A stretch of 47,055 nt of DNA, taken from positions 1 to 47,055 of IMG/VR virus record IMGVR_UViG_3300030328_002651, one strand, 5' to 3'. Below the pieces are notes generated by a model. It was not told the DNA's origin. It was given only the letters and a program-made list of their open reading frames with translations, and searched no databases. The position numbers were made by a program, and so were the translations under genes. Shown here in pieces: positions 6,362 to 47,055 of the stretch; the first letter of the stretch is position 1, and each line of letters begins with the position of its first letter. This DNA comes from a virus.

Positions 6362-6372
6362 AAGGCAGTTTA

Positions 6373-7011: not shown

Positions 7012-7015
7012 AGTA

Positions 7016-7222: not shown

Positions 7223-7224
7223 TA

Positions 7225-7431: not shown

Positions 7432-7435
7432 CAAT

Positions 7436-7533: not shown

Positions 7534-7558
7534 TAACTTTAAATAGAAAGGAAAATAA

Positions 7559-9216: not shown

Positions 9217-9225
9217 GAACTTGAA

Positions 9226-9776: not shown

Positions 9777-9807
9777 CAAAAAAGCAATTAGAAAAAGGAG
9801 TTGAGTA

Positions 9808-27900: not shown

Positions 27901-28535
27901 AATTGGGAGTTCCCCATTCCTATGTGAACTTCTTTATTATTCGTAACCATCGTAGGGGTTCCAGTAACAGATTCAGCTGATGATGAAACATCTCCTTCAC
28001 TTGGAGGTATTGTATCGTGGTTTATATCGTTTACTTTTTTTACTTTACTATCAGCATTATCAAAATAAACTAAATCCCTGGTTCCATTATCGTTAATCAT
28101 TGCTATTTTATCAGCATTAAAAACAGCTTCGGATGTTTCGTATAGAGTTCCGCCATTTATACGTTTTCCACTTCCTAAAGCACCACTAACTCCATTAATT
28201 ACAGTTGAAGCGGGTTTTCCTGTCCAAGCTATTTTTTGAACCCTTCCCAAAGAATCTATATAATGTCCATTTCCTGAGGTTGCTAAATCAGAATTATCAG
28301 TAACAGTTAGAGTGCTTGAATCGTTATTTTCAGCACCAGTCATATTTGCAGTATCAGAACCACTAGCAGCTAAAGGAACTTCGGTATCGTAAAAAGTTGC
28401 TCTTAAAACACCATCTTCAGTTACAGGATCTACATTTAAACTATATGAAGCAGAATCATCTGGAATATCCCTTTCAGAAGGAACTGTTATAGTCCCCCTA
28501 TGAAACCCTTTTATTTCGTGTACTCTTTTAGGCAC
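24993..28535 (-). CDS. Large beta-rich tail protein (1180 aa)
   Basis: Beta-rich throughout. Residues 1-200 resemble the start of phage proteins that list DIPDDSASYSLNVDP early and strands later. The middle has propeller-like blades (GxxxYYIDT, LMVVDNND), and residues 900-1000 contain FKGRIYVFDENNTYRI, as in tail tube/stabilisation proteins of short-tailed phages. It stands before the ejection trio, matching the place of the T7 gp12 tail tube protein. It is probably a tail hub, nozzle or stabilisation protein exposed on the virion. Confidence 0.6.
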   Translation of the reverse strand: MPKRVHEIKGFHRGTITVPSERDIPDDSASYSLNVDPVTEDGVLRATFYDTEVPLAASGSDTANMTGAENNDSSTLTVTDNSDLATSGNGHYIDSLGRVQKIAWTGKPASTVINGVSGALGSGKRINGGTLYETSEAVFNADKIAMINDNGTRDLVYFDNADSKVKKVNDINHDTIPPSEGDVSSSAESVTGTPTMVTNNKEVHIGMGNSQLDKPLWCGYHSKGQFGANPSTSLELVDAELQSPSFFPSFHKTVNYGNYVYGIEQGGRYLYYIDTNTGNYNSYVSNLVFTSTKALAIDHNNYLMVVDNNDTIVWIDVSTTAHSVVKTYGITQAGTETSHDFTDIIETNLSSTYYIWLAKSGGHTYHGEGQVNSPTANVGRGLLQMATAPTGTSGTLTFADKTPWQGHDTTLSAGAEPYVGAWFKDSGGSVPCNAAIIPYTKATLVRVGPSNIGWVGWLCEFVVEDAQTTQLRINFLNATLTSNVDLVELADMNGPVMNLVSPGYTPVYDSGTFSNNDADEEKWFPVRLKTTSSSTDIIGKYGAEGDLTSAVLQSSWDNIISVYSHAGGHLTDDRIILATNTANSGGVSSLSTKLRHLTYVDATPSAGGGDTMIKSHWYCTSDGGGSGSWAHNSVKTVYRFAKGSDTVPTFEYSTDQAKVSSAIISSVSTGFTYSLFLNSGSGNGKLATISSTGTSNFSSWTKRQQSPLDITLSQTDMASGDFNASHEYWYKASFIYDGFQESPLGISWQLSSPQAKHVELTLKLHTDSLSKRITSVAIYRAQTETNGGTEPDGFYRLVKVLDLDTSWTFDTDATWGTARTKTFIDTFTLGASYEGRTGISEVLDFTTPNYSLSTELNSHLFVTKCHHQLIEGASNYLFKSKPYNYNQFNWINDFLKLPTTPTAIASFKGRIYVFDENNTYRIEPNSLYIEDVVEGAGCLDQTSVAVTDYGMCYADKNFIYLHDGNFANPISVAISKGDTTYSWQNIDTSYKPKIVFMNKLKSFLIVFKTTATNGYYAWVYNLLKKRWDLWQPFEKHGASPNSSEPKGFILGKNGEVLFSCNNKMFQVLGDPDQRKGLYWTSKKITLGQNTQIKRFNNFSVVGDMPTENVGTVSSGVSVKIDGNDVTESPNDGAYGWNNFTTNSQSGKYVEWVISNFAGSKHIDALGIVYRRKVPNAETVS

Positions 28536-29289
28536 TTATTACTTTCCCCGCATAAGTAGTAACTCCATTTTGAATGTCTAGAGTTATTAAATTAAAGTTT
28601 CCATTGCTTAGTATATCTACTACACCAACATTATGTGTCCAATTAGTAGGTCTACCCTTTAAATAATCTTTATCCATATCAGCTAAGCATCCCATTGAAT
28701 GTGCCATGTGTGGTCCTGAGATGTGGGTGATGACGGATTTTTGGCAATCGTGGGTATGCCCGTAAATGATGTTGCATCCCATTTGTAAGGCGTGAGTTCT
28801 TGCATGGGCAATTCCCATGTAGTGTCCTCCGTGATAAGCGTATAACTTGCTTCCAAAAACTTTAAAGATTTCACCGTAGGGATACCATTCATAGCCTCTT
28901 TTGTCAAATCCGAAGGCTTTTCTTGATCCGAGATGCTCAAGGTACGGGTTCTCTTCCACGAAGTGGTCAAACCATAATTCGTGGTTCCCTTGGGCGAATT
29001 GCTTTTTTTTGCATTTGACCTCTTTAAGGACTTTATCAATCCTATCCAATCCTTCATTAGCTTCTTTAATCTCTTTAAGGATAGAAGGGAGTTGATACTC
29101 AAGAGGAGGTCTTTTTCTTTTGCTCCATTGCCAATGTGAGACTGATGTTCCATCAACAAAATCTCCTATTAATACAAACCCTGTAGGTTTTATTTCTTTT
29201 ATTACATTTAAAGCACATTTAAAAGCTGTCTCGTCGTGATTCGGATAGTGAACATCCGGAAACACCACTACTCTGTCTTTGATTTTCAT
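28528..29289 (-). CDS. Calcineurin-like metallophosphoesterase
   Basis: All metal-site motifs are present in order: D12-x-H14, G42-D43-x-x-D46, G101-N102-H103-E104, H153-GG and G177-H-T-H180. The 253-residue length is typical. The family hydrolyses phosphomonoesters or phosphodiesters with two metals; the substrate is not predictable. It is in the late operon between the lysis genes and the tail protein, overlapping the latter by 8 nt. Possible roles are cell-envelope or nucleotide degradation during infection. Confidence 0.85.
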   Translation of the reverse strand: MKIKDRVVVFPDVHYPNHDETAFKCALNVIKEIKPTGFVLIGDFVDGTSVSHWQWSKRKRPPLEYQLPSILKEIKEANEGLDRIDKVLKEVKCKKKQFAQGNHELWFDHFVEENPYLEHLGSRKAFGFDKRGYEWYPYGEIFKVFGSKLYAYHGGHYMGIAHARTHALQMGCNIIYGHTHDCQKSVITHISGPHMAHSMGCLADMDKDYLKGRPTNWTHNVGVVDILSNGNFNLITLDIQNGVTTYAGKVISA

Positions 29290-29318
29290 AGAACCCTTTC
29301 AAAAGCTCCCTTACCCCA

Positions 29319-29795
29319 TTACCCGTATTTGTCCACTATTTCTAAAAACTTCTCTACAGTGCCCTTTCCCTTTGCTGTATTGTAATACACTTTCCATTGA
29401 CTCGCTTGTTCTTCAACTGTCTTAGGCAAAGGTTTAGGAACTCTCCTATAATGCAATCTACACATAATAATCTGTGCTGCTATATTAGTAGTAAGTATTT
29501 TTTCCCAATCTGCTTCATTGGGCTCTAAAAAGTAAAACCACTCTAACTTACAAGCAGATGCTACCTTTTTCATTAAAGACTCTCTATACTTAAGGTAGTT
29601 TTTACATATATCTACAGCTACCCAACCTTCACATTGAAACAGACCTTTAGCGGGTCCTTTTATCTGCTGTAAATAAGTATACTTGCTCTCAACTAATCCT
29701 GTATTATAGATAAGGCTAACAGCATCATCGCTATAAAGGTCTATATCTTTTAAGGTAGATTCTATTACTTCTTTTATTTGTTTTTGATCCAGCAA
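29319..29795 (-). CDS. Lysozyme-like / transglycosylase-like endolysin
   Basis: The core reads NTGLVESKY (the likely catalytic Glu is residue 36 counted from this start) followed by GPAKGLFQCEG, the Glu...GLFQ layout of SLT-type lytic transglycosylases and related lysozymes. A later WKVYYNTAKGKGT segment fits the family C-terminus. The TTG at 29795 has AGGAG 8 nt upstream. A TTG at 29843 would add a 16-residue hydrophobic N-terminus. It sits at the end of a run of small membrane proteins, consistent with cell-wall degradation at lysis. Confidence 0.65.
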   Translation of the reverse strand: MLDQKQIKEVIESTLKDIDLYSDDAVSLIYNTGLVESKYTYLQQIKGPAKGLFQCEGWVAVDICKNYLKYRESLMKKVASACKLEWFYFLEPNEADWEKILTTNIAAQIIMCRLHYRRVPKPLPKTVEEQASQWKVYYNTAKGKGTVEKFLEIVDKYG

Positions 29796-29845
29796 ATCGC
29801 TTTCTCCTATAAGGGTAAATAACAATACCCATCTTAGTAACAAGG

Positions 29846-30073
29846 TTACTTGCCTTTAAATACGCCCTCGATTACGTCTGTTACAACGTCTATAACTTTC
29901 TCAAAGAATATTTGCTCTTTTTCTTCACTTACAAAAGGGATGTCTATTCTTTTGTTAATTGCGGTTGCAATCTTTTCAGACATCTCATCTGACCCAAGTG
30001 ATTTAATCGCTTCTTCTTGCATTCTATCTGCTTGTTCTTCTGCTAGTTTTACCAACATTGACTTTATATCCAT
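29846..30073 (-). CDS. Hypothetical amphipathic protein (75 aa), lysis cluster
   Basis: Not recognised. It is helical and acidic in the middle, with a hydrophobic C-terminal amphipathic helix. It overlaps the upstream membrane protein by 10 nt and precedes the lysozyme-like gene. Membrane association is possible but there is no clear transmembrane helix. Confidence 0.6.
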   Translation of the reverse strand: MDIKSMLVKLAEEQADRMQEEAIKSLGSDEMSEKIATAINKRIDIPFVSEEKEQIFFEKVIDVVTDVIEGVFKGK

Positions 30074-30276
30074 TTACTGCTCCAACTTATTATTAGGGTT
30101 ACTATTGCCATACCGCCTAGCATATAATTACGCCAGTTTTCTAATGACCTTGTTCTTCCATTTAAAGCTTTTAACTGATCTTTAATATCAGGTAATTCTC
30201 TATTGAGAATAGTTTCAATTCTTGTAAGGCGATCTTTAATGTCACTTCTATAGCCATCTATAGTTTCGTAATCCAT
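30064..30276 (-). CDS. Coiled-coil plus C-terminal membrane helix (70 aa), holin/XhlA-like
   Basis: Residues 10-45 form an Ile/Leu heptad coiled coil (RIETILNREL, IKDQLKALN). Residues 50-66 are one membrane helix at the very C-terminus. The layout resembles XhlA-type haemolysin/holin partners that anchor endolysin-release complexes. It shares one base with the upstream gene stop. The lysis role is inferred from layout and position. Confidence 0.6.
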   Translation of the reverse strand: MDYETIDGYRSDIKDRLTRIETILNRELPDIKDQLKALNGRTRSLENWRNYMLGGMAIVTLIISWSSKWI

Positions 30277-30596
30277 TATCTATTGCCACTCCCACCGTTA
30301 ATTCTCCCGGACATATAAGATACTTTATCTGATAACTCATTTAATTCTTTAGTTATATCCTCACGGTGACGCAAGGATGTCTCATCTGATTTATTCCATC
30401 TATCTAACATTTTCAAAACAATTCCTTCTAAATTCTCTAATGTTTCGGATTGTCCTTTGTTCTCAATTTTTAACTCTTGTATTGCTTCGCCTTGTTGTTC
30501 TGCTCTTTTAGCATTCTGATATACCATAAAGACAAACATTGCACCTACAACGCCTATCATTCCAGCTTCTGAATACAACGCTAAAAAGTCTTCCAT
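30276..30596 (-). CDS. Membrane-anchored coiled-coil protein (106 aa), spanin/holin candidate
   Basis: An N-terminal membrane helix (about residues 11-27) is followed by a long charged coiled coil to residue 95, the topology of inner-membrane spanins. There is no lipobox. It abuts its neighbours with one-base overlaps in the same small-gene run. Confidence 0.6.
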   Translation of the reverse strand: MEDFLALYSEAGMIGVVGAMFVFMVYQNAKRAEQQGEAIQELKIENKGQSETLENLEGIVLKMLDRWNKSDETSLRHREDITKELNELSDKVSYMSGRINGGSGNR

Positions 30597-30880
30597 TAGT
30601 CACCACTTCTTAATCTTTCTACTTCTCTTTCAATATAATCAATTCTTTGATTTTGCTTAATATCAGCAGGTATCTCAGCATCTTGATTTTTTTCAGCGTC
30701 TTCTTCTAAGTCAATAATGTGTTGTTCATTCATAGCAACTTGGTATTCAAGAAATGATATTCTAGCATTTAATTGACTATAACCCCAAACTAGCATCACT
30801 ATAAAAGTGACGGCTTGTATTAACATAGGGAGTGAAATGTCTAAACTGCTTGAATCTGATATAGAATTAGCTTCTGCCAT
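30596..30880 (-). CDS. Membrane-anchored coiled-coil protein (94 aa)
   Basis: One membrane helix (about residues 20-37) is followed by a leucine/isoleucine coiled coil and an acidic tail. The topology is as in the next gene downstream. The two may be diverged duplicates or interacting partners (inference). Confidence 0.6.
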   Translation of the reverse strand: MAEANSISDSSSLDISLPMLIQAVTFIVMLVWGYSQLNARISFLEYQVAMNEQHIIDLEEDAEKNQDAEIPADIKQNQRIDYIEREVERLRSGD

Positions 30881-30928
30881 TTCCCATTATAATTGATTCT
30901 ACCATTGCGCAAATATTCACAAATCCAA

Positions 30929-31267
30929 TTACTTTCTTTTTTTCTTTTTTCGCCAACTTAGGGGATTTAGGTTTAGCTCTTTTTGATACCATTGAAGTTC
31001 CTTTTCCATTTGCTCATATCTAACACGTTCTTCAGATATATGTTTTGAAACAAGCTCGGATATTTGATCATTAGCTTCAGCCATCCTTTGTTCCAGTATT
31101 GTGATACGATTCTCGACACGCCAAGCGCCATAAATAATTCCACCAACAAGCACCAAAAGCTGACCCAACCACTTAATATTAATATTGAGGGCGAGATTGT
31201 CATCAATGACATTGCCTCGTATACTTCTAGCGGTTTTAGGCTTTCCATCTATAGACCCATTAGCCAT
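30929..31267 (-). CDS. Membrane-anchored coiled-coil protein with basic tail (112 aa)
   Basis: The N-terminus is basic. One membrane helix (about residues 32-49, LGQLLVLVGGIIYGAW) precedes a coiled coil and a C-terminal cluster of Lys/Arg. The topology is that of an inner-membrane spanin or a coiled-coil holin partner. The start overlaps a tiny GTG gene. Confidence 0.6.
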   Translation of the reverse strand: MANGSIDGKPKTARSIRGNVIDDNLALNINIKWLGQLLVLVGGIIYGAWRVENRITILEQRMAEANDQISELVSKHISEERVRYEQMEKELQWYQKELNLNPLSWRKKKKRK

Positions 31268-31341
31268 CTAACCACCATAGTAAAGGCGAATACAAAGCCT
31301 ACAACTCCTACCCAAAAATATACTTCCTTATCTTCGTACAC
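31249..31341 (-). CDS. Membrane micro-protein (30 aa), GTG start
   Basis: GTG at 31341 has GAGGA 8 nt upstream. The product is an acidic N-terminus (VYEDKE) followed by a single hydrophobic helix covering nearly all the rest, with Arg and Trp near the end. The frame opens only one codon before the GTG. It overlaps both neighbouring genes (31328-31600 and 30929-31267), typical of lysis micro-genes. It could be a real 30-residue holin-like peptide or a chance frame. Confidence 0.4.
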   Translation of the reverse strand: MYEDKEVYFWVGVVGFVFAFTMVVRWLMGL

Positions 31342-31600
31342 TTTTTATATCCTCATATTTATGATGATAGTAACACCAGTTAGTACCTTCATATAAATCA
31401 GTATACCAATGTATTACAGAATCTTGATCTACAATTTCACTAAAGATAGTAGAATAATGCGTAGAGTCTGGAGCAACTTGGTTTCCCAATAAAGATGAAT
31501 TAGAACAGCTAGTAAAAAATGTAGCTATCACCATAGAAAGCAAGAAAACTATATATGTATAGATGTAAAACTTTAAATCTTTTTTAGGGTCACTAATCAT
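31328..31600 (-). CDS. Small secreted/lipoprotein-like protein (90 aa)
   Basis: After a basic N-terminus there is a hydrophobic segment (about residues 13-29) ending in FFTSC, a weak lipobox with C32, then a Ser/Asn-rich region and a Tyr/Trp-rich, mostly soluble tail. That layout would suit an outer-membrane spanin paired with one of the coiled-coil neighbours. The lipobox is imperfect (Thr-Ser before Cys). Confidence 0.5.
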   Translation of the reverse strand: MISDPKKDLKFYIYTYIVFLLSMVIATFFTSCSNSSLLGNQVAPDSTHYSTIFSEIVDQDSVIHWYTDLYEGTNWCYYHHKYEDIKSVRR

Positions 31601-31605
31601 TTTTA

Positions 31606-31983
31606 TTATTCGTTATACTTACCTTTTGCCTTTGTAAGCAAGCTAGACTTTGCTTCTGATTGTGTAAAAGAAACATTATTGTTCCTTAAGTAAGCTTGAA
31701 GCTGAACTGCTGTCCAACTATTTGCTGGTTCGCCACTTGGATGTCCATTTGAATGAACAAAGTATGCTTCTTTTTCTGCATCTCCCCATAACGCTTCAGC
31801 AATCTTTTTTACTTTTGCATCTTCTGATGTAAGTATAGAATTTGGGTTTACTACATGGCGATGATAACTTGTGCTACCAATTTGACTTCCATTATCCATT
31901 ACTTTTGTTGCAGTTCTTACTTGTATTGAGTAATCACCTTTTACTTCTATCTGGTCTACTTCGACCACTTTTTCTAATGCCAT
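31606..31983 (-). CDS. Late protein with C-terminal HeH/LEM-like motif (125 aa)
   Basis: The N-terminal 80 residues are beta-rich, with a YHRHVVNP stretch. The C-terminus (residues 88-120, beginning SWTAVQLQAYLRNN) has the helix-extended loop-helix pattern of HeH/LEM-like motifs, which bind nucleic acid or proteins in phage structural proteins. It follows the LamG protein in the operon, so it may be a fibre partner or chaperone. Moderate support only. Confidence 0.5.
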   Translation of the reverse strand: MALEKVVEVDQIEVKGDYSIQVRTATKVMDNGSQIGSTSYHRHVVNPNSILTSEDAKVKKIAEALWGDAEKEAYFVHSNGHPSGEPANSWTAVQLQAYLRNNNVSFTQSEAKSSLLTKAKGKYNE

Positions 31984-32007
31984 TTCTGACTCCTTTTAAT
32001 TATCCAA

Positions 32008-33492
32008 TTAAATTCTATATGAAAAACCAACTCTTATTTGAAAATTATCATCTAAATTTCCATGACCAAAATATGAGTGTGTCCCATCATCTTGAACATA
32101 AGCAATATTAAAATAGGATTGATTTTCAGGAACTAATACCATTGAAGTCATACCCGAAACTGTACTTCCTCCATGTGAAATTGAACCAAAACCCCATTGA
32201 GAGTCAGCACTTCCACTTAATCCAGTTGCCGATGTATAAGGAAGTGAGATTTTTATATTGCCACTAGCACTTAAATCATTGACTGCATTAAGATAACCAC
32301 TAACATGAACTAAATTTCCAATCCTAACATAACTTAGATATTTATCTGTTCCGCTCACCTCCCAACTATTATCTGTTGAAGCAGTTATTGTAACTTCGTG
32401 TACACCTTCCTCATAAACCAAACCATCATCGCCTGAAGGAGCGTTATTAACTGCTCCATTAGTCATATTTGCGTGTAAATCATTTCCTGACTTATCAAGC
32501 CATTTATCAGATGCTATTCCACTAGGGTCTAAGTCAATTACACAACCAATTGGAATTAAAACAGAACTGTGATTCCATTCTGTTGGAGTAGTTCCACTAG
32601 ATGTAAAAATAACCCCTGAAGCGTTAGATGAAGCACCTAAATTTGTAAAATCATCATTTGAATTATAAGTAGCAATTTTATATGTTTTACCTTGTACTAA
32701 AGTACCAGATGTTAAATTAGTATTAGCTGCACCTTGGTATTTAAAAGGAACAGAACCTCCTGAGTAATAATGCTTTACCTCATCAGCACTTAAAAGTCTA
32801 TTGTGCCATCTTATATTTGAAATATCAACATCTTTATATAAACCAGCATTGTTACCAGTATAAGTGTCAATTGCAAATTTTCCATTAGTGCTTGTAACAC
32901 CAGCCGCACTATAGCTTGTAATGCTTACTGTGCCTACGCTTACACCATCTTGATATATCGTAAGATTACCACTCCTGTCAAAGGTAAAAACAACATGAAC
33001 CCATTTACCAAATTCCCAAGTTGCATTAGGGTTGTAATCTAAAGTGCCAGAACCATCGTTAAGCCTTACCCTCCAAACATTACTTCCAGAACCACCATCA
33101 TAAGCTCTTAAAACCCATCCATTAACAAGCCAACTTTGTATATGTGAAAGCCATAATTGCGCACCTGTTTCTAATTTAAATCGAACTTCGATGCTAAAAT
33201 CATTTGCACCAGCATCATATTTATCATTGTGGTCAATAAAACCATAAGTATTAGCATTAATGTGCATTGAAGGAGCTGGCATTGTATTGGTTACATGGTT
33301 CTGTCTGCCTTCTTCTTTTAAAATGTAATTACCATTAAAACTTGTATCCGTTGTTGATAACTGGACACCAGCAGAAGTTCCTTCACCATCTTCTACTGTT
33401 CTCAGTGTAGCATCTACACCGCTATTTGAATTTGAAACTTGTAGTAAGTCTTTATAAGTGCTTGCTACTGTTTTATTTGTTAAAGTCGCCAT
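32008..33492 (-). CDS. LamG/concanavalin-like fibre protein (494 aa)
   Basis: Residues about 75-250 form a LamG-type lectin domain: FSIEVRFKL, GKWVHVVFTFDRSG and DISNIRWHNRLLSADEV are the typical strands of the Laminin_G_3 family. The remainder is beta-rich and low in charge, ending in a strand-rich domain with GHGNLDDNFQIRVGF. Such proteins bind glycans and serve as host-recognition fibres or head decorations. It lies after the head-tail connector genes. Confidence 0.75.
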   Translation of the reverse strand: MATLTNKTVASTYKDLLQVSNSNSGVDATLRTVEDGEGTSAGVQLSTTDTSFNGNYILKEEGRQNHVTNTMPAPSMHINANTYGFIDHNDKYDAGANDFSIEVRFKLETGAQLWLSHIQSWLVNGWVLRAYDGGSGSNVWRVRLNDGSGTLDYNPNATWEFGKWVHVVFTFDRSGNLTIYQDGVSVGTVSITSYSAAGVTSTNGKFAIDTYTGNNAGLYKDVDISNIRWHNRLLSADEVKHYYSGGSVPFKYQGAANTNLTSGTLVQGKTYKIATYNSNDDFTNLGASSNASGVIFTSSGTTPTEWNHSSVLIPIGCVIDLDPSGIASDKWLDKSGNDLHANMTNGAVNNAPSGDDGLVYEEGVHEVTITASTDNSWEVSGTDKYLSYVRIGNLVHVSGYLNAVNDLSASGNIKISLPYTSATGLSGSADSQWGFGSISHGGSTVSGMTSMVLVPENQSYFNIAYVQDDGTHSYFGHGNLDDNFQIRVGFSYRI

Positions 33493-33496
33493 AATG

Positions 33497-33628
33497 TTAC
33501 CCCGTTAAATCTTCCCAATTGGTTTTTGTTTCTTCCCATTTAAGTCTAATTGCTTCTGCTCCGCTCCATCCAACATCTAATATTGTCTGAACAAAGTTTA
33601 CAGCTACTTGTCTGATTGCCCCTAGCAT
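33497..33628 (-). CDS. Small late protein (43 aa)
   Basis: The ATG shares one base with the previous stop (TAATG at 33626-33630). The product is an amphipathic helix with several Trp. It sits 4 nt before the LamG gene and fills an otherwise empty gap in a tightly packed operon, which supports its reality. Function unknown. Confidence 0.55.
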   Translation of the reverse strand: MLGAIRQVAVNFVQTILDVGWSGAEAIRLKWEETKTNWEDLTG

Positions 33629-33903
33629 TATTTCAACGCTATCATATTGGTTGCAGTTGTTCCTGTAGCGTCTACCCTATCAAAAACAACGGGTAATATT
33701 TGACCACTTGCTAAATTTTTAAATACAATAGCCTCACCGCTATTATTTAAGTCTAACGCAACATCTCCTCCAACACCTACATATAAAGCTTTGTATGGGG
33801 CTCCAGTTACATCAGCGCCATCATTAGGGCTAACTGCTACTGCGCTATCGTATAATAATTGATTTAGTGATTCCTTTACGGAATATTTTTGTAATTCAGC
33901 CAT
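33628..33903 (-). CDS. Hypothetical small structural protein (91 aa)
   Basis: A beta-rich, low-charge protein with Gly/Val/Asn-rich strands, without a recognised family. It lies between a connector-like protein and the fibre gene, so it could be a small head-tail joining or decoration protein. Confidence 0.6.
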   Translation of the reverse strand: MAELQKYSVKESLNQLLYDSAVAVSPNDGADVTGAPYKALYVGVGGDVALDLNNSGEAIVFKNLASGQILPVVFDRVDATGTTATNMIALK

Positions 33904-33913
33904 CTTGTTTCTC

Positions 33914-34633
33914 CTAAGCTACGACACCTTCCCGAGCTTGACTCCTCTCATGGGTGTCTTGGTTTAAAAATATTTGTAATTTTAAATTATAATCTTGAGT
34001 TAAAGACTGCTTTAAAGCAGTATATCTGTCAATGATTCCTTGTTGAGCATTTGCCAGTTCAACATCTTCGTCTGTATTAACATAAGTTTTCATCTGAGTA
34101 ATCGCATCTGAAATAAGATGATTTAAGCAATATATTGAAGCTCCAATAACAAAAAGATGATCCGCCTCTTGAGGAAAGAAAAAGCTCTCAGTGCTAGTAT
34201 TAATCACTGTTGCGGTAGCATCAGAAGCAGAAACTGGCATAATAGGAACATAGTTTACATTTCCAGATGTTTCACCTGATCCCGAATTTCCTATTATGTA
34301 TAATTTTTCATTTGTAATATAATACACAGGGTCAGTATCACTTGCTCCGTATATAGAATTTGAATCATTGTATTTAGTTTTATCCGATACGGGAATTTGT
34401 TTTGCTTGGTAATTTCCTTTATCAACCGATATTATATGAAAATCTCGCACACTAAGACCTTGCCAACTAACTGCTGCTGTCTTAGTGTATCTAGCTAAAG
34501 ATTGATGGGGCATAGCATTTATTATATCAGCTCCCGCTTGTCTAAGTCCTTGTGTTATAATATTATCATCACCAACCGTTCCTATTAAATCTTCTACTTG
34601 TATTTTGTAATTTTCTATTGAAGCGTATGCCAT
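33914..34633 (-). CDS. Head-tail connector / adaptor candidate (239 aa)
   Basis: It has a helical start, a beta-rich middle with PVYYITNEKLYIIG, and long helices from residue 150 on with FFFPQEADHLFVIGASIYCLN. This helix-strand-helix layout is common in adaptor and tail-tube proteins (T7 gp11-like) that read portal to tail. It shares one base with the upstream gene. Confidence 0.55.
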   Translation of the reverse strand: MAYASIENYKIQVEDLIGTVGDDNIITQGLRQAGADIINAMPHQSLARYTKTAAVSWQGLSVRDFHIISVDKGNYQAKQIPVSDKTKYNDSNSIYGASDTDPVYYITNEKLYIIGNSGSGETSGNVNYVPIMPVSASDATATVINTSTESFFFPQEADHLFVIGASIYCLNHLISDAITQMKTYVNTDEDVELANAQQGIIDRYTALKQSLTQDYNLKLQIFLNQDTHERSQAREGVVA

Positions 34634-35046
34634 TAAAAATCATACCCCTTTACCGAATAAGCACCCGATCTTTCTCTGTTTGCATTTTTCTTAGCTTCGT
34701 TAACCATCTCTCTATAAAGTCTTCTAAAGTACATGGCTTGATTTAAGCCTTTACCTTCGGGTACTTTTTCATATCCTTTAGCAATAGCATAATAAGTTAT
34801 AGCTTCGTGGAATTCTTCAGGAATGCTTGGAGACTCTGTGTACCCTATAGCACTTGTAGATGTATCTGATTTTGCAAGTCCCTCTTCCGAAACAACAGCG
34901 TGTATATAAACAAATTTGCCCACATCAGATGATGATATAGCGGAATATTTTGTACCATCAGTATTTTCAGTTCTTTGAGCAAGTCCTAAAACTTTATTAT
35001 TAGAAATCCACCAAACTTTTTTTTCTGCATTTGTTTTATCACTCAT
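34633..35046 (-). CDS. Connector-like protein (137 aa)
   Basis: The ATG at 35046 overlaps the previous stop as TAATG; a TTG at 35052 is less likely. The central IPEEFHEAITYYAIAKGYE helix, followed by YFRRLYREMVNEAKKNANRE, is the signature-like pattern of small head-completion/adaptor proteins next to the portal in podovirus-like phages. No catalytic role is expected. Confidence 0.6.
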   Translation of the reverse strand: MSDKTNAEKKVWWISNNKVLGLAQRTENTDGTKYSAISSSDVGKFVYIHAVVSEEGLAKSDTSTSAIGYTESPSIPEEFHEAITYYAIAKGYEKVPEGKGLNQAMYFRRLYREMVNEAKKNANRERSGAYSVKGYDF

Positions 35047-35387
35047 TACCAAATTTCTCCGCCTTCTCCATCCGTTATAAGTTGTTCGTGACCATCAGTA
35101 ATCCTTGGTATTTCATATCCATCATAATCCACTCTTTCGATTTCTAAAATTCTCTCTCCATCTGAAACGCTGGGACTACCTAATTGAACAAGACCATCAA
35201 AAGCGTAAAAAACTCGAGCATTCCCCGTTTCGGTATTGCTTGCAACAGTATTCCTATATGTTTTTCTTAATATTCTAGATTTTGCAGAAAAATCTTTCAA
35301 TGCGTGGTTTAAATGAATTCGTGCTTCAGCTTGTCCCATATCGGGGTGATGTTGCTGAACCAATTCTATCATTTGTTTTTGTGTCAT
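35046..35387 (-). CDS. Small connector-like protein (113 aa)
   Basis: A helical first half (with HHPDMGQAEARIHLNHALKD) leads into a beta-rich acidic second half. Position between the decoration gene and the adaptor-like gene suggests a head-tail connection or head-closure role. The family is not recognised. Confidence 0.5.
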   Translation of the reverse strand: MTQKQMIELVQQHHPDMGQAEARIHLNHALKDFSAKSRILRKTYRNTVASNTETGNARVFYAFDGLVQLGSPSVSDGERILEIERVDYDGYEIPRITDGHEQLITDGEGGEIW

Positions 35388-35401
35388 AGTATCTCCGATA
35401 T

Positions 35402-35426
35402 TGGAGGGGCATTAAGCCCCCCCAAC
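35402..35426 (-). terminator. GC-rich hairpin between decoration and connector genes
   Basis: A strong hairpin (a GGAGGGGC side pairing with GCCCCCC across a 5-nt loop) lies directly after the decoration gene. On the minus strand it has no T tract, so it is more likely an RNA processing or partial-attenuation element that sets head protein levels. Confidence 0.45.
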
Positions 35427-35442
35427 ACGTTTTGTTTAGTTA

Positions 35443-35919
35443 TCAATCACTATCTGTGAATAATGCTGATCCATCCGAGTCTGCATCATCAGAATACACA
35501 CAACCTGAAACCATCCATTGATCAGATGTTATCTTTGTTAACTCTATCCATGAACCTACTTCACCACCAGTATCATTAAGATTAGCATCAAGGATAATAT
35601 TACAGTCATTAGCTGCTGGTAAAACTGCAAAAGCATAACCAGCTGTAGTAGATGCAAGTATTACACCTCCTACAAAATCATCACCACCAGAATCCGCAAT
35701 ATCTCCTGTCTTTATTGTATAAGCATTATCATTCGCTGTTTGAACAATAAATTTTACACTAAATCCAGTATCAACATTTGCGTCTGTTGGTAACGTAACT
35801 GTTACAGCAGAACTGCTATTCAAAGACATAATCTTACCTGAATCAGACTTTGCAAGTGTTTTATCTGCAGTAACATCTACAATACCTGCACTCGAACCAC
35901 CTAAATAAGGTCTAGCCAT
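35443..35919 (-). CDS. Head decoration/fibre protein with LGGSSAGI domain (158 aa)
   Basis: It is almost entirely one beta-rich, acidic domain, beginning LGGSSAGI at residue 6 with DSGK and a VTLPT strand. The same domain forms the C-terminal two thirds of the protein at 24334-24996. It lies directly downstream of the capsid gene, the usual place for a decoration or head-fibre protein. The shared domain may let both proteins bind the same ligand or a common trimer base. Confidence 0.6.
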   Translation of the reverse strand: MARPYLGGSSAGIVDVTADKTLAKSDSGKIMSLNSSSAVTVTLPTDANVDTGFSVKFIVQTANDNAYTIKTGDIADSGGDDFVGGVILASTTAGYAFAVLPAANDCNIILDANLNDTGGEVGSWIELTKITSDQWMVSGCVYSDDADSDGSALFTDSD

Positions 35920-35931
35920 AAATAACCTCCC

Positions 35932-37254
35932 TTACGCTGTGATTTTGAATAGCTTGTGACTTTCAATTAGAGTTACGCCAATGCCTTCATCAGACATATA
36001 CTGATCCTTTACACCATCATAAGCATTATCAGTTTTGATGTTAGCCTGAAACTTTGGTGCGCGATACTGCATCAAAGAAAGGTTTTCATCACTTACGACA
36101 AGCATATAATTGTTATAAGGACCACGCAATGCTGGAGTTGGAATCAACTGCAATGCACCATGAGGTGTTTCAAGAACTCTGTAGTTAAAACCAAGAGTAT
36201 CTCTTTGCATATTATCTAGATTTACAGTCCAACCAGAGTTCCCAGCTAATCCTGAACTACCCGCCATTTTAGACCAGTAACTCATAGCACCCATTCCGCA
36301 GAAAGCACGCTTCATACCAGCTTCAGGAACATATTGGAAAACTTTTTCCATATCATCTACAAAACTTCCATAGCTATAGCTAGCTTCAGAAATTGTAAAA
36401 CGATTTTGATCGTCACCGTCGGTGGCTCCGTGTTCTTCAATTGCTGGGATAATACCCATTGTTGCACGAAGTGCGTTAGAGCCTGCATCGGTCATACTCT
36501 CAAGACTTGAAAAAGAACCTGAAAGACCAAAAGGATTTCTTCCAAACAAGAAAGCTCTTTCTTTTTGTATCTTATGCTCTTGAGACTTAACATCACGAAG
36601 CCTTGCCAATTCTGAAGACTCACCACGTAAGGAAGCTTCTAACAAAGTTCCTGTAATTTGTAGTGGTGTTTTGAATATCTGAGTAGAATTGTAAACAACT
36701 TCTAGCTCATCTGCCCAAGCTTCAGGAGACTCAGTTCCTTCTCCGTGTGCATTTCCAACTACAACTCCAAAATCTCCATCTACAATGCCTATATCATCAG
36801 AATTATCATCTGCCGCACCTGAAAGATTTTTTAATTTAATTGTAGTTCCATCAGCGGATACAGTAGTAATAATTGCTGATCCTTTTTTGGTTGTCTTTGC
36901 TGCATTCCATACATCAACTTGATAGCCAACCCAAGATTGATGAGCTTTTGAAGCATCATCTAAATACTTGCCCATGCCTACAATGCCATCAATGTCAACT
37001 GTGCCAGACTCTGTTTTATCATCTTGAACAGTTACTGATCCATTAAAATTAAACTCTTGTTTTTGCCAAGGGTTTCTGTGTTCGAACATTTTAAATGTTG
37101 GGTCAGCTAAACCAGATACTACATTTCTATTTGAAATAGTTGTTGTAAATGGAGTTACATCTGTCCACAACTCTTTTACGACGTTAGGGCGAATATAAAA
37201 ATCTCTACGATCTGTATATAAGACACCCGAACTTCCAAGCGTTTTTGCCGCCAT
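35932..37254 (-). CDS. Major capsid protein
   Basis: At 440 residues, directly downstream of the scaffold and portal, this is the expected coat protein. It has an N-arm start (YTDRRDFYIRPNVVKELW), beta-hairpin segments near 30-70, a KEESTAL-like acidic domain and a C-terminal QFQANIKTDNAYDG stretch, consistent with an HK97 fold. The assignment rests on order and character; no single diagnostic motif. The ribosome site is GGAGAA. Confidence 0.75.
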   Translation of the reverse strand: MAAKTLGSSGVLYTDRRDFYIRPNVVKELWTDVTPFTTTISNRNVVSGLADPTFKMFEHRNPWQKQEFNFNGSVTVQDDKTESGTVDIDGIVGMGKYLDDASKAHQSWVGYQVDVWNAAKTTKKGSAIITTVSADGTTIKLKNLSGAADDNSDDIGIVDGDFGVVVGNAHGEGTESPEAWADELEVVYNSTQIFKTPLQITGTLLEASLRGESSELARLRDVKSQEHKIQKERAFLFGRNPFGLSGSFSSLESMTDAGSNALRATMGIIPAIEEHGATDGDDQNRFTISEASYSYGSFVDDMEKVFQYVPEAGMKRAFCGMGAMSYWSKMAGSSGLAGNSGWTVNLDNMQRDTLGFNYRVLETPHGALQLIPTPALRGPYNNYMLVVSDENLSLMQYRAPKFQANIKTDNAYDGVKDQYMSDEGIGVTLIESHKLFKITA

Positions 37255-42972: not shown

Positions 42973-43170
42973 TCAGTCCCATTCAATATGTGATACTCCT
43001 TTCAGTCCGTATCTCCAATCTTGTATCTGAAATATGCGTTCCATTATCTTCTGTTCAGCATCAAATATGTTCATTATTCGGATAGCATCTTCACTTAATT
43101 CAACCACTTTCTCAAATTTCCCCGTTTCTGGGTTCATTTTCTCTATTACAGGCATTTCATCAGTTTTCAT
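42973..43170 (-). CDS. Hypothetical acidic protein (65 aa)
   Basis: Not recognised. It is a helical protein with an N-terminal acidic/proline segment. It is divergent from the plus arm and is separated from the late operon by the operator array. As a small gene next to an operator it could be the regulator, but no DNA-binding motif is visible. Confidence 0.6.
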   Translation of the reverse strand: MKTDEMPVIEKMNPETGKFEKVVELSEDAIRIMNIFDAEQKIMERIFQIQDWRYGLKGVSHIEWD

Positions 43171-43236
43171 AGATTGAAGGTATGACTGGCAAATAGCGAT
43201 TCTCTACGCCCCAATCTCAAAAATTTAGTGTAGAAT

Positions 43237-43376
43237 GTGTGAGGGAGATATATAGTCTCCCCACCCCCCTCGCTGTACTGGGCATACCCATACTTTTTCG
43301 TTGAAAAAAGGTGTCTGCCTCCAGTACATCTCAGCCCTTGCTGAGACGGGCAATAGACACAGGTTTATTGTCACAC
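43237..43376 (+). ncRNA. Structured leader with candidate pseudoknot (140 nt)
   Basis: The perfect helices are: outer GTGTGA/TCACAC (43237-43242 with 43371-43376); a 6-bp hairpin (43243-43248 with 43256-43261); A, an 8-bp helix (43274-43281 with 43321-43328); an A/T hairpin (43293-43310); C, 6 bp plus 3 bp across a 3-nt bulge (43311-43319 with 43349-43360); and D, a 6-bp hairpin (43330-43345, loop 4 nt). A and C cross, which makes an H-type pseudoknot or a two-state switch. It ends 34 nt before the ATG at 43410. No known class recognised. Confidence 0.6.
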
Positions 43377-43409
43377 TTAACATAATAACAAACAAAAGGA
43401 TACATAAAA

Positions 43410-43796
43410 ATGAATATAATATTCCAATACTATAGTGAAGTAATGGTGAATAAGTTTAACAAGCTTACTAATGCTATGATGCAAGTCAAGGAGGGCTTTA
43501 CCAATATTCCTCTTGAGGATAAGTGGTCTAACCTATCCAAAGAGGATAAAATGGCAATCGTTGTTAAGGCTGATAGGCTTATAGTCAAGAACTCCCTCAA
43601 CCCAGAGGCTGATGTAACTAGGTTACAGTCGTTTGCAGACCAAATAGGGTTCAAAGGCACAGCAAACGTTGGCGGGAAAGATAAGGATTACGTCTACGTT
43701 AATCGCAGACCAAGTCCCGATACCTCATTTGATTCACTTGCTAACGACCCAGATCTTGCTGATATAACCAGCGAACTCGGGTTCGGCAGTAGGTAA
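43410..43796 (+). CDS. Hypothetical early protein (128 aa)
   Basis: Not recognised. The N-terminal half is helical and basic; the C-terminal half is acidic and Asp/Ser-rich. The ribosome site AGGA lies 9 nt before ATG. It is the first gene of the plus arm after the structured leader and is isolated by a strong terminator downstream, so it is probably expressed early as a single transcript. That is the pattern of phage takeover proteins, though its role is unknown. Confidence 0.7.
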   Translation: MNIIFQYYSEVMVNKFNKLTNAMMQVKEGFTNIPLEDKWSNLSKEDKMAIVVKADRLIVKNSLNPEADVTRLQSFADQIGFKGTANVGGKDKDYVYVNRRPSPDTSFDSLANDPDLADITSELGFGSR

Positions 43797-43812
43797 TCAG
43801 CCTATTCAGTTG

Positions 43813-43844
43813 AAAAGGGGGCAGTCATTGAACTGTCCCTTTTT
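43813..43844 (+). terminator. Intrinsic terminator
   Basis: A 13-bp stem with two G-U pairs (43813-43825 with 43832-43844) and a 6-nt loop ends in a T5 run. It directly follows the 128-residue gene. Confidence 0.85.
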
Positions 43845-43891
43845 AATCCCTGCAAATAAAAAACGCGAAATAAAAATCATTAAATCCTAAA

Positions 43892-43948
43892 GCTAGATAG
43901 GGAGAATATTTTCCAGTTTAACAAGGAAACTGGTCTAGCATATTTTTT
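43892..43948 (+). ncRNA. Bulged hairpin with T tract (candidate small RNA or second terminator)
   Basis: The helix GCTAGA/TCTAGC (43892-43897 with 43934-43939) and a 7-bp CCAGTTT/AAACTGG hairpin (43913-43919 with 43927-43933) are continuous on the 3' side, with a 15-nt bulge on the 5' side. It is followed by CATATTTTTT. It can end a short RNA begun after the upstream terminator, or be a second stop. The gap 43845-44010 holds no other feature. Confidence 0.45.
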
Positions 43949-44010
43949 CATTGGTCTGTGTCTACCAAAAAACAAAGGCACTCAGTTAAAAACAATAAAA
44001 AGGTACTAAA

Positions 44011-44265
44011 ATGCGACAATCAAAGACCAAAAAACAAAAAAGCAGAGCAAAAACTAAAAGACTTGCGATAGAGGGTAGGACAAAAGTGCAAAGAGAGAAG
44101 AATGTGATGAGGTCTGCTATAAACAACTATGATGGTAATCTAGGTGAGCTAAAAGGCGTAACTACAAAAGAACGCTATGTTCATATGAATGCACTAATCA
44201 ATGCTGAAAATGCCAGATTAAAAGCAATTGCAAAGCAAAAAGAGAAATTAGAAAATGTTAATTAA
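44011..44265 (+). CDS. Very basic protein (84 aa)
   Basis: The first 30 residues are almost all Lys, Arg, Gln and Ser; the rest is a charged helix with a C-terminal coiled-coil stretch. It is compatible with nucleic-acid binding. The ribosome site is AAAAAGG. It is followed 15 nt later by the 49-residue gene in the same transcript. Function unknown. Confidence 0.65.
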   Translation: MRQSKTKKQKSRAKTKRLAIEGRTKVQREKNVMRSAINNYDGNLGELKGVTTKERYVHMNALINAENARLKAIAKQKEKLENVN

Positions 44266-44280
44266 AAAGGAACACATACA

Positions 44281-44430
44281 ATGCGTTATTTAATAAACCA
44301 ATCAGAAAAAAGCATCTTTCATCACTTTTTACCTTCAGGAAGTGTAACTGTGGTTTCAATACCAAAGAAAAACTTTCCGAATGTTCTCCAAGCACTGGCA
44401 AAAGCTAGAGAACAAGTGTTGGGAAAGTAG
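44281..44430 (+). CDS. Hypothetical small protein (49 aa)
   Basis: The ATG follows AAAAAGGA by 11 nt; the stop is TAG at 44428-44430. It is a short beta-beta-alpha protein (strand segments near residues 10-28, then a helix with KAREQVLG). It is followed by a clear terminator. Not recognised. Confidence 0.6.
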   Translation: MRYLINQSEKSIFHHFLPSGSVTVVSIPKKNFPNVLQALAKAREQVLGK

Positions 44431-44449
44431 CCTTTTGCTTTCTATTGCT

Positions 44450-44500
44450 TAGGGGGAGTTGCTACTGTTATCTCAGTTGCACTCTCCCTATTTTATTTTT
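44450..44500 (+). terminator. Intrinsic terminator
   Basis: A 10-bp stem with one G-U pair (44450-44459 with 44481-44490) and a 21-nt loop is followed by TTTTATTTTT. It ends the 44011-44430 transcript. Confidence 0.75.
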
Positions 44501-44603
44501 GGGGCATAAAAATAAATAGATAATAAAAACATCAATGTGAGTAATAAAGTTTTGCATAATATTTCTGCATTGAAGTTTTTGGCAGTTATGCCTTTGTCCC
44601 AAA
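44498..44603 (+). promoter_or_regulatory. Structured leader with alternative pairings, gene at 44630
   Basis: An outer TTTGGG/CCCAAA helix (44498-44503 with 44598-44603) encloses a hairpin GCATAA-bulge-CTGC/GCAG-TTATGC (44554-44591). The strand TTATGCC (44586-44592) can pair instead with GGCATAA at 44503-44509. Two states of this kind are typical of switches. The element overlaps the T tract of the preceding terminator and ends 27 nt before the ATG. Confidence 0.45.
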
Positions 44604-44629
44604 TAATTATTAACAAAAAAAGGATAAAA

Positions 44630-45178
44630 ATGAAAACATTAAAAGACATTAAAGATATTAAATTTGTTAACAACGTATCGGAATTAACTCCTATTAAATC
44701 AAATGCTGGCTGGTACATAGGTAAAGTATATAATGATGAAGGTTTTCTTATGCCTTATTCAAGAAACACCGATTATATGAGTAAAAATGATGTAATTGAT
44801 GAATATTATGACGAAACAAGACAAGATTTAAGAGAGAAAGTTGTTTTTAATGATGGTTTTACTATGTCAGTTCAAGCATCAAGAGGTCATTATTGTGTTC
44901 CAAAAATAAATGGCGTGTATACAAAATATAAATACGTCGAAGTAGGATACCCAAATAGAAAAGAAGAATTGCTCTTACCTTATGCAAGCGAACATATAAT
45001 CGAACCTGAATTCGCAAGAAGAAGTAGTGACAAGTGGACACACGAACAAGTTTATCCTACTGTCCCTTCTGTTGTAATAAGATCTATTATAAAAAAACAT
45101 AAAGGTATAAAAAGCGGAGAAATGCCTAAACTAGATTATAATTTAACAGATTGTAGAAAAGGCGTTAACAAGCGTTAA
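44630..45178 (+). CDS. Hypothetical protein (182 aa)
   Basis: Not recognised. The ATG at 44630 has AAAAGGA 6 nt upstream and is preferred over an in-frame GTG at 44537, which lies inside the structured leader. The protein has mixed helices and strands, several Tyr/Asp-rich stretches (DEYYDETRQD) and a basic end. It is a stand-alone early gene between two structured elements. Confidence 0.65.
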   Translation: MKTLKDIKDIKFVNNVSELTPIKSNAGWYIGKVYNDEGFLMPYSRNTDYMSKNDVIDEYYDETRQDLREKVVFNDGFTMSVQASRGHYCVPKINGVYTKYKYVEVGYPNRKEELLLPYASEHIIEPEFARRSSDKWTHEQVYPTVPSVVIRSIIKKHKGIKSGEMPKLDYNLTDCRKGVNKR

Positions 45179-45189
45179 ATAACAAACCT

Positions 45190-45211
45190 AGGGTAATGTA
45201 TCAGTTACCCT
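45190..45211 (+). terminator. Short hairpin after the 182-aa gene
   Basis: A perfect 7-bp hairpin (45190-45196 with 45205-45211, loop 8 nt) lies 11 nt after the stop codon. The downstream sequence is only weakly T-rich, so it is a possible weak terminator or 3' stabiliser. Confidence 0.4.
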
Positions 45212-45303
45212 TAAATCTCTTCATATTAAAGCGATTAAGGTCTTTAAACACCCCATATATCGCTACAATTCAAACACTTCAAATATAAAATAGGAAGAAA
45301 TAT

Positions 45304-45480
45304 ATGATTAATAATATAATTATCATTTCAATTCTAGCAATTAGTTATTACCAATTAAATAAAAAAGATCAGATCATTACGAAGTATAGACATCGGTTAA
45401 ATCAAAAAGAATGTGAACTTTCTAGAGTTCAAAAAGTTTTAACTGATGAACAAAAAACGCTGATTAACTGCAATAATTAA
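45304..45480 (+). CDS. N-terminally anchored micro-protein (58 aa)
   Basis: The first 16 residues (MINNIIIISILAISYY) form a short membrane anchor; the rest is a charged helix. The start has AGGAAG 6 nt upstream. It ends at the first base of the closing helix of the ncRNA candidate (45480). Probably membrane-bound; role unknown. Confidence 0.6.
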   Translation: MINNIIIISILAISYYQLNKKDQIITKYRHRLNQKECELSRVQKVLTDEQKTLINCNN

Positions 45481-45640
45481 TTAACTATGCGGAGGGAGCT
45501 GGGTAAACCAGATTAGTGGATAAATAAAGTGACTGAGTGTCCGAATTGCTGAAGTTTTGGGAAGCACACTTCTTTATTTAGGTTGTGGTGGATTAGGCTG
45601 AAAAGCACTAATCGTGTACGCATAGTTAATAATTTTTTTT
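45480..45640 (+). ncRNA. Candidate structured ncRNA with intrinsic terminator (about 160 nt)
   Basis: The ends pair as a perfect 12-bp helix (45480-45491 with 45619-45630), followed by a T8 tract (45633-45640). Inside are a CTGG/CCAG hairpin (45499-45511), an 8-bp helix (45511-45518 with 45606-45613), a perfect 8-9 bp helix (45521-45529 with 45572-45580) and a 5-bp helix (45536-45540 with 45566-45570). The strand CACTAATC can also pair locally with GATTAG at 45591-45596. No long open frame is present. It is not recognisable as tRNA, tmRNA, 6S or RNase P RNA. Confidence 0.65.
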
Positions 45641-45646
45641 ATACAA

Positions 45647-45719
45647 GTGCTGTGGACTAGGCAATAAGGGTCGCTACCTAACGAAACGTGGATATTAATT
45701 GTCACCACGAACACAGCAC
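45647..45719 (+). promoter_or_regulatory. Three-way-junction-like leader of the gene at 45742
   Basis: A perfect 8-bp helix (45647-45654 with 45712-45719) encloses a 4-bp TAGG/CCTA hairpin (45658-45661 with 45677-45680) and a 5-bp CGTGG/CCACG hairpin (45687-45691 with 45705-45709). The layout is a compact three-way junction of 73 nt, ending 23 nt before the ATG. The conserved bases of the purine riboswitch are not evident. Confidence 0.5.
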
Positions 45720-45741
45720 ACAAATTAACAAGGAACAGCTT

Positions 45742-45996
45742 ATGACAATAAATGAGCTAAACATTACTTTATCTGATCTTACAATAGAAAACCTAATCGA
45801 ATATTTTGACGGATACGGTATTGTTGTAACTGATGATGAATTAATTAAAAAACGAATTAAACAACTGCACAATTATACATCTTGTCTAGGATACGATGTT
45901 ATTCCAGATGAAGATGGACATCTCTACGAAGTTAATTGTGAATGTTGGTATTGTAAACCCCTAACAAAAGGAGTTATAGTTGGAAAACATAACTAA
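45742..45996 (+). CDS. Small acidic protein with cysteine cluster (84 aa)
   Basis: The ATG has AAGGAA upstream; a GTG at 45688 would read through the leader structure and is rejected. The protein has a helical, acidic first half. The second half has CxCxxCxxxx with a conserved look (NCECWYC, about residues 67-73), a likely zinc site. It overlaps the ParB-like start by 17 nt, so the two are coupled. Confidence 0.65.
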   Translation: MTINELNITLSDLTIENLIEYFDGYGIVVTDDELIKKRIKQLHNYTSCLGYDVIPDEDGHLYEVNCECWYCKPLTKGVIVGKHN

Positions 45997-47055
45997 AACC
46001 AAAGAGTCTAAACTCTTATTGACTAAAAACATAGAGTTTGTATCAAATGTTCGTAAAACGATTGATACTAAATCGGATTCATTTAAAAACTTAAAAACCA
46101 GTATAAATAATAATGGTTTAAGAAGTGCTTTAAATGTATTTCAAGACCCTAAAGATAAAAAATATTATCTTATTGCTGGGCATAGAAGATTAAGAGCAAT
46201 TCAAGATTTGGAGAGCGAATATAATATCGCTACAGAAGTCCCTGTAGTGGTATCAGCTCCTCCGAATGGAGATTTGTCTACTCTTCAGATAGAAGAAAAC
46301 TTATTAAGAGAAGATTTAAGCTTCTTGGAAGAAGTTTTAGCATTTAAAGGTATGATTGATAAAGATAGTACAATAAAGAATATATCTGAAAAGTTTGGAC
46401 ATTCTCCTAACTATGTAAAAGAAAGATTAAGATATTCTAATTTAGTACCTGATCTTTTAAAACCTTTTGTGTTTAATTCTGATTCATTTGATAAAAAAGA
46501 AATGAAAGATTTTGCTAGCAATACTCAGCAAGTGCAAAAAGAAGCATTAGCTTGGGCAGTTAAAAGCTCTAAATCAAAAACTGTTGCAAAATATATAAAA
46601 AGTCACTTTGAAGAGGATAATATTTCTTGGCATCATAGTTTTCTCCGTTTTGAAAACTTGGTTGGAGTCAAAGAAGATAAAGATACTTTAATTAAACTTT
46701 GTGGTGGAGAAGATGAGTTTAAAGATTTGCAATCTACTTATCAAACCAAAAGGAAAGTGTCGCTTCAGTTATTTGAAGAGTTTACAGATGATTATGATGG
46801 CACTATAGGCTTTGTTAAGTATGCTTTAACAAACACTTCTGATGAAGTAATGAATGCAATATGGACAAAGTTGAACGAAGTTAAGAAAGTTCCAGATTTA
46901 GAATATGGTTGGAATGAGAATGTGAAGCAAGCTAGTTCTTTGTGTGAACTTATGATAAGCCTACGCAATGCTCCAAAAGCAATTGAAAGTGTCATAGGAA
47001 GGTCTAATTTGGGAAGTGGCAGAGTAGCTATAAAGATAAAATCACAGAAAAAAGG
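45980..47055 (+). CDS. ParB-like DNA-binding protein, N-terminal part (gene crosses the circle join)
   Basis: The start is TTG at 45980 with AGGAG 6 nt upstream. Joined to 1-695 it gives 561 residues. The N-terminal ParB/Srx domain shows AGHRRLRA (66-73), the GxRR box that binds the phosphates of CTP in ParB, and IEENLLREDLS (104-114). A helix-turn-helix follows at about 129-152. ParB clamps load on centromere sites and slide on DNA. No ParA is present in the genome, so a partition system would be incomplete. A transcription-regulator, DNA-condensing or host-hijacking role is possible. It is the largest early-arm protein after the primase-helicase. Confidence 0.8.
   Translation, partial: MENITKTKESKLLLTKNIEFVSNVRKTIDTKSDSFKNLKTSINNNGLRSALNVFQDPKDKKYYLIAGHRRLRAIQDLESEYNIATEVPVVVSAPPNGDLSTLQIEENLLREDLSFLEEVLAFKGMIDKDSTIKNISEKFGHSPNYVKERLRYSNLVPDLLKPFVFNSDSFDKKEMKDFASNTQQVQKEALAWAVKSSKSKTVAKYIKSHFEEDNISWHHSFLRFENLVGVKEDKDTLIKLCGGEDEFKDLQSTYQTKRKVSLQLFEEFTDDYDGTIGFVKYALTNTSDEVMNAIWTKLNEVKKVPDLEYGWNENVKQASSLCELMISLRNAPKAIESVIGRSNLGSGRVAIKIKSQKK
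46971..47055. repeat. Right copy of terminal overlap
   Basis: Same 85 bases as 1-85 with one silent difference (A at 46978). The ParB reading frame passes through it without interruption. Confidence 0.9.

Follow-up and report, generated by a model that had tools for sequence, protein, structure and literature searches.

A conserved, probably structured leader element upstream of the early genes in dozens of uncultured phages

Introduction

The window analysed here is a 47,055-nt stretch of viral DNA (positions 1 to 47,055 of IMG/VR record IMGVR_UViG_3300030328_002651). Upstream of its first early gene, at positions 43237-43376, an original prediction had placed two interlocking helices, each loop holding one strand of the other, and had likened this pseudoknot to ribozymes, riboswitches and tight translational control. 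The question is whether relatives of the window keep this arrangement and, if they do not, what is kept at this place and what it may be doing. Our verdict is that the window has a hairpin carrying a non-conserved pseudoknot, within a real and widespread leader element.

Sequences analysed

Relatives were collected by a search for the portal in IMG/VR (48 loci) and by two DNA pattern scans, which gave 37 and 102 stretches (80 of the 102 are listed); one of the two scans demanded the GTTGA motif described below. Left out before the counts were L157, a pattern match without GTTGA that has other neighbours and passes the profile, L020, L032, L144 and L090, in which the contig ends in the element, and L153, which has no GTTGA.

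Helices in the window

The first predicted helix, in which TGTACTGG (43274-43281) pairs with CCAGTACA (43321-43328), is present with 8 bp and no mismatch. The two predicted hairpins (GGGAGA, 43243-43248 with 43256-43261, and TCTCAGC, 43329-43335 with 43340-43346) and the outer helix (GTGTGA, 43237-43242, with TCACAC, 43371-43376) were likewise found. The remaining helix is the one that makes the knot:

43311-43319 with 43349-43360, + strand: crossing helix H2 of the original prediction, present in the window, not conserved

Here GTGTCTGCC does pair with GGC-AAT-AGACAC, but the pairing consists of 6 bp plus 3 bp with a 3-nt bulge, not of 9 continuous bp as had been claimed. The folding energy of the region beats that of shuffled sequences (z -4.3). 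The first helix by itself is unremarkable, since some 8-bp Watson-Crick helix appears in 26 of 200 shuffles of the region. The crossing pair is indeed infrequent by chance, i.e. a pair of such quality arises in 5 of 1000 dinucleotide shuffles, a figure that applies to a single sequence chosen by eye. This infrequency speaks for the pseudoknot, as does a vaguely similar short pairing that we judged by eye to be present in one relative, L013.

A conserved element between two gene blocks

That a structured, conserved element lies immediately upstream of the first early gene is borne out by the relatives. At least 88 distinct pattern matches share a fixed order of parts, i.e. the box TTTYnAAAAWTTn, TAGAAT, a 5' hairpin around GATATA, a C-run (C5) and GTTGA; downstream of GTTGA there follow a complementary 3' arm, often CCCYYG, and then the first early ORF. 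In the window these parts are:

43215..43227, + strand: conserved box TTTYnAAAAWTTn, from column counts over the loci (columns outside the search pattern)
43231..43236, + strand: TAGAAT, -10-like hexamer; from the sequence, transcription would start a few nt downstream
43239..43264, + strand: 5' hairpin P0 of the type GUG-n-GGG ... CCC-n-YAC, in which GATATA is constant, from family columns and the predicted fold
43264..43269, + strand: C-run (C5), constant across the family, presumably unpaired, and also within the search pattern
43270..43299, + strand: 5' arm of P1, the long hairpin; always about 31 nt long and nearly free in sequence, from arm comparisons
43300..43304, + strand: GTTGA motif at the top of P1, from position counts
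43309..43329, + strand: 3' arm of P1, nested with the 5' arm and including the 5' strand of H2, from nested pairing tests and RNAalifold
43329..43346, + strand: small hairpin TCTCAGC/GCTGAGA displaying CCCTTG (family motif CCCYYG), from the alignment and RNAalifold
43394..43400, + strand: AAAAGGA, resembling a ribosome-binding site, not paired in the predicted fold

The box precedes TAGAAT by about 10 nt, and the usual -35 place has no conserved hexamer; the promoter-like sequence at 43215-43236 may need a phage factor or an unusual sigma. A portion of the P0 stem may precede the actual start of the RNA. The register of the next part is conspicuously tight: GTTGA lies 68-71 nt from TAGA in all 84 listed sequences that have GTTGA in the searched span (69 nt in 47, 68 nt in 34), and 54 of these are non-redundant, 36 of the 54 coming from scans that did not require GTTGA. 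The 3' arm follows GTTGA after an interval of anything from a few nt to more than 100. CCCYYG occurs within 60 nt of the pairing end in 41 of the 84 sequences and, in 38 of those 41, within 12 nt.

Sequence is hardly conserved in the 31 nt that separate C5 from GTTGA, yet this stretch is complementary to the downstream arm. Native arms reach a mean score of 38.3 against 27.8 for swapped arms, and none of 10000 permutations reaches the native value. All four Watson-Crick pairs are found at most arm columns (42 of 52 sequences, those above the score cut-off). The P1 pairing has z<-2 in 38 of 84 sequences (225-nt search span, mean -2.0), and the native 3' arm ranks best of all in only 25 of 52. 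A convincing P1 is absent in some AT-rich or long-insert groups (e.g. L104, L109, L139, L095, L110), and the pairings of L013, L061 and L140, whose partner lies 145-197 nt away and reaches into the ORF, are probably spurious. In a diverged subgroup (L059, L065, L074) the nested hairpin is near-perfect, TGTTTATGC/GCATAAACA around ATTTCGTTG/CAACGAAAT; for two of these loci no nearby ORF1, the first early gene described below, was found.

Complementary arms of about 31 nt with free sequence would suit an enzyme that reads shape. The early leaders of phages lambda and T7 carry RNase III hairpins, and our element, like them, belongs to an early leader and forms a hairpin that is long and irregular, but it differs in its fixed promoter register and constant motifs. 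A leader for RNA processing or stability, whose 5' hairpin would protect the early mRNA and whose long hairpin would be an RNase III-like site, would also fit the position of the 5' hairpin near the start. It would, however, leave the fixed position of GTTGA, the constant C-run and CCCYYG unexplained, and also the terminators without promoter room described below; we regard it as an unlikely explanation.

The place of the element in the genome is fixed as well, between leftward terminase and portal genes and rightward early genes, as judged from ORF length and order. In loci with enough flank the leftward neighbours are an ORF of about 65 aa, an ORF of about 258 aa, terminase and portal, and the rightward neighbour is a small early ORF; the exceptions are a few far relatives with extra or missing small ORFs, and L157, which does not fit. 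The element is single-copy: 33 of 35 records were matched, each at one place, and a profile search matched 128 of 158 loci, none of them twice. Compared with named phages the element DNA gave no match, and we found no description of it in the literature searched, which covered few subscription papers. The window is 88% identical to L002 and L003 until the end of the element and diverges from them thereafter. We note a sharp border from 43345, beyond which relatives are unalignable; the early region is hypervariable.

The crossing helix in the relatives

The interlocking of the two helices did not stand up to this comparison. Across the window and its closest relatives, nine sequences in all, the nested pairing has z<-2 in 9/9 and the crossing pairing in 0/9; the crossing pairing has z -1.5 in the window itself and is not significant in any of the 8 close relatives. 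In the wider set, i.e. the 26 of 52 non-redundant sequences in which a recognisable CCCYYG was near enough, nested pairing has z<-2 in 18 and crossing pairing in 2. In other words, the 5' strand of H2 has a competing nested partner, so that in the nested hairpin it pairs inside the first helix instead of with its crossing partner, and the nested pairing alone is conserved. An RNAalifold prediction for the nine closest sequences gives the nested pairs, four of them changed on both sides, plus a CUCAG hairpin, the net covariation score being almost nil (0.15).

In the relatives the first helix survives with compensatory changes and the second is lost, the outcome that the original prediction had itself named as its refutation. 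An H-type pseudoknot calls for two crossing helices that are both conserved, and this is not what we see; as the crossing helix is not kept, a pseudoknot as the conserved core is ruled out. The pseudoknot reading appears largely refuted by the relatives, and it is most improbable that an interlocked knot serves here as a ribozyme, riboswitch or translational switch. Rfam gave no match for the window at the gathering cut-off and none for 43150-43450 at E 10, and for 8 relatives it gave only 4 chance-level matches, to eukaryotic families. The sequence of the helices is nearly free, and the constant motifs presumed to be single-stranded (C5, GTTGA, often CCCYYG) are too few for the usual aptamer or catalytic core, which makes a ribozyme or riboswitch unlikely. 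Tight translational control by a hidden ribosome site is unlikely in the window too, since AAAAGGA lies outside the helices in the predicted fold.

The working molecule

Complementary arms may work as RNA or, as an inverted repeat, in the DNA. At flanked positions a strict count (n=31) gave GU 8 versus AC 4 and YY 16 versus RR 4, which favours a molecule with the sequence of the + strand. A loose count over the P1 arms of the whole family was nearly even (GU 29 versus AC 21); A-C mismatches that are nearly as frequent as G-U, as in this count, are unusual for a structured RNA. The fold z-scores of the two strands (+ -2.43, - -2.15, p 0.14, n=52) do not differ significantly, and the raw folding energy favours the minus strand.

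The near symmetry of the looser count and the lack of a significant strand preference in folding are consistent with a DNA-level element, i.e. a replication origin, a packaging site or a recombination site, the hairpin RNA being incidental. The single copy at the point where two gene blocks diverge, near the minimum of the cumulative GC skew, and the adjoining terminase genes point the same way. Against it stand the excess of YY over RR and of GU over AC in the strict count, and the fact that the promoter-like box and the early ORF are always on the same side. Over 86 loci, 11, 8, 11 and 11 of them end in successive 250-nt intervals downstream of the element, i.e. 41 of 86 in the first kilobase, and 0 end within 500 nt upstream. 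Ends spread out in this way point to breaks in the assembly of a variable region rather than to a physical end, and we rejected a cos-type end. Altogether we consider a DNA element unlikely. RNA is favoured as the working molecule mainly by the promoter-like box and by the constant orientation toward the early genes, and from these we infer that the arms act in a transcript. A structured leader RNA is, in our judgement, the probable nature of the element.

Early genes and terminator-like hairpins

The gene that follows the leader in the window is:

43410..43796, + strand: ORF1, first early gene, 128 aa, member of a fast-evolving family

The first ORFs of 14 loci (the window and 13 others) can be aligned as a single family that evolves fast and has a WKGDV-like motif, the identity to the ORF1 of the window being 13-38%. 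The ORF1 protein gave no match to named phages. Its predicted model is fair (pLDDT 84.5), and a fold search returned no match with E <= 0.001. ORF2 (44011-44265, + strand, 84 aa) has, from its sequence, a Lys/Arg-rich N-terminus. One may ask whether the leader is bound by a phage protein, perhaps the product of ORF1 or ORF2, for autoregulation or as a protein-dependent switch. ORF1 follows the element in most loci and ORF2 begins with a basic stretch, which speaks for such a role; the lack of a significant fold match for ORF1 and the 7 loci that have no ORF1 by the rule applied argue against it, and we hold this explanation to be quite unlikely.

The early genes are followed by hairpins that look like terminators. 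In the window two of them were seen:

43817..43847, + strand: terminator-like hairpin with a T-run after ORF1, not reported by the tool's terminator scan
44450..44498, + strand: second terminator-like hairpin, intergenic, between early genes, likewise not reported by that scan

The scan reported no terminator on the + strand in 43000-47055, the probable reason being that it runs the stem on into A/T tracts. A terminator-like hairpin is also present after the different first ORF of L002. Over the loci, there are 41 such hairpins in 160 kb on the early coding strand and 17 in 577 kb on the late coding strand, i.e. they are about 9 times denser on the early one, with a small contamination of the counts because the 'late' side of the window includes the early genes of 1-10176. 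On the antisense strands there are 116 in 577 kb on the late side and 10 in 160 kb on the early side.

Of the early hairpins, 33 of 38 are intergenic, and intergenic space is larger in early regions. The gap to the next start (n=29) is below 50 nt in 7 cases and below 100 nt in 14. An intergenic terminator was seen in 23 of the 53 loci with at least 900 nt. L128 has four near-identical terminators 19-53 nt before genes; a promoter would barely fit into such gaps, if at all, so that read-through seems needed there. In L128 (about 590-1620 downstream of TAGA), and likewise in L110, near-identical terminators that end in GTGTCTCCCTTTTTTACAG or a close variant lie between consecutive small early genes. 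The L128 leader, too, contains one terminator-like hairpin.

A possible role in antitermination

Our preferred explanation, to which we give a probability of roughly 40%, is that the element is the 5' leader of an early operon in a large group of uncultured phages and acts in cis in antitermination. The sequences show conservation, a single copy, a fixed place and register, co-varying arms and terminator-like hairpins after early genes. Antitermination as its job is a tentative proposal, favoured by the lambdoid/HK022 precedent and by the dense intergenic terminator-like hairpins on the early coding strand. Against it count the P1 pairing that is significant in only part of the family, the many such hairpins on the antisense strand of the late side, the larger intergenic space of early regions, the share of loci with an intergenic terminator (only 23 of 53) and the empty terminator scan of the window at 43000-47055. 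Transcription would start just after TAGAAT. In the nascent RNA the small 5' hairpin would fold and leave the C-run free; the 31-nt arm ending in GTTGA would be made next, and the complementary 3' arm would then close the long irregular hairpin, often beside CCCYYG. The nascent structure would act in cis on the polymerase, either unaided, as HK022 put does, or together with a protein, as lambda nut does, and the polymerase would thereby pass the terminators between the early genes.

The lambda nut system with its N protein has the same order of promoter, leader RNA, small first gene and terminator. It differs in that our element has no second copy and the first gene does not encode an N-like basic protein. 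Inspection of the family sequences by eye revealed neither a constant word resembling boxA nor a short hairpin of the boxB kind. The EAR/epsC leader is linked to antitermination and is comparable as a leader RNA; the difference is that the tested elements have no Rfam match. The epsC RNA is listed as RF01735 in a published table (PMC2864571).

Early genes of lambdoid phages are preceded by terminators, which HK022 overcomes by put RNA in the leader (PMC9378689). As described there, putL and putR are structured RNAs in early leaders, made of stem-loops with bulges, and putL is directly downstream of the promoter (PMC9378689). Our element is similarly located in an early leader next to a promoter, as far as promoter and early role can be read from sequence and gene order. 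The put type consists of two stem-loops in about 70 nt and HK022 has two copies, whereas the element is single-copy and about 100-250 nt long, has the 31-nt arm with GTTGA, and its two hairpins, P0 and P1, are larger and variable. RNAs of the put type work on RNA polymerase via the beta' zinc-binding domain and need no protein factor. A profile of the 5' domain did not match HK022 26000-36500, a segment that carries no put annotation. The element may be analogous to HK022 put or lambda nut, an analogy that does not imply relatedness to either.

A bolder version of the antitermination reading, which we think rather doubtful, is that the element represents a new class of antitermination RNA that is sufficient by itself, has no relationship to put and serves an entire unclassified group of phages. 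The short constant part (5' hairpin, C5, 31-nt arm and GTTGA) would capture the polymerase by about 60 nt, and the long hairpin, sequence-free, co-varying and tolerating inserts of more than 100 nt, would lock onto it; operons with terminators between early genes would be expressed in this way. Few RNAs are known to reprogram RNA polymerase by themselves. With its fixed register, nearly free arms and more than 80 natural variants, the family would be a ready-made natural mutagenesis set for finding the key parts, and the element also marks a likely early promoter in a group of uncultured phages whose adjoining genes change fast.

Other observations

A phage polymerase promoter of N4-like or T7-like type, suggested by GGGAGATATA and by a 3285-aa protein (12223-22080, - strand), was dropped as unsupported, the motif being single-copy and the protein having no Pfam match. 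The window also encodes a Sak-type single-strand annealing protein (2792-3631, + strand) and a DUF932 protein (1949-2680, + strand). The contig of one relative, L156, is binned as Neomarinimicrobiota, which is a weak hint at the host.
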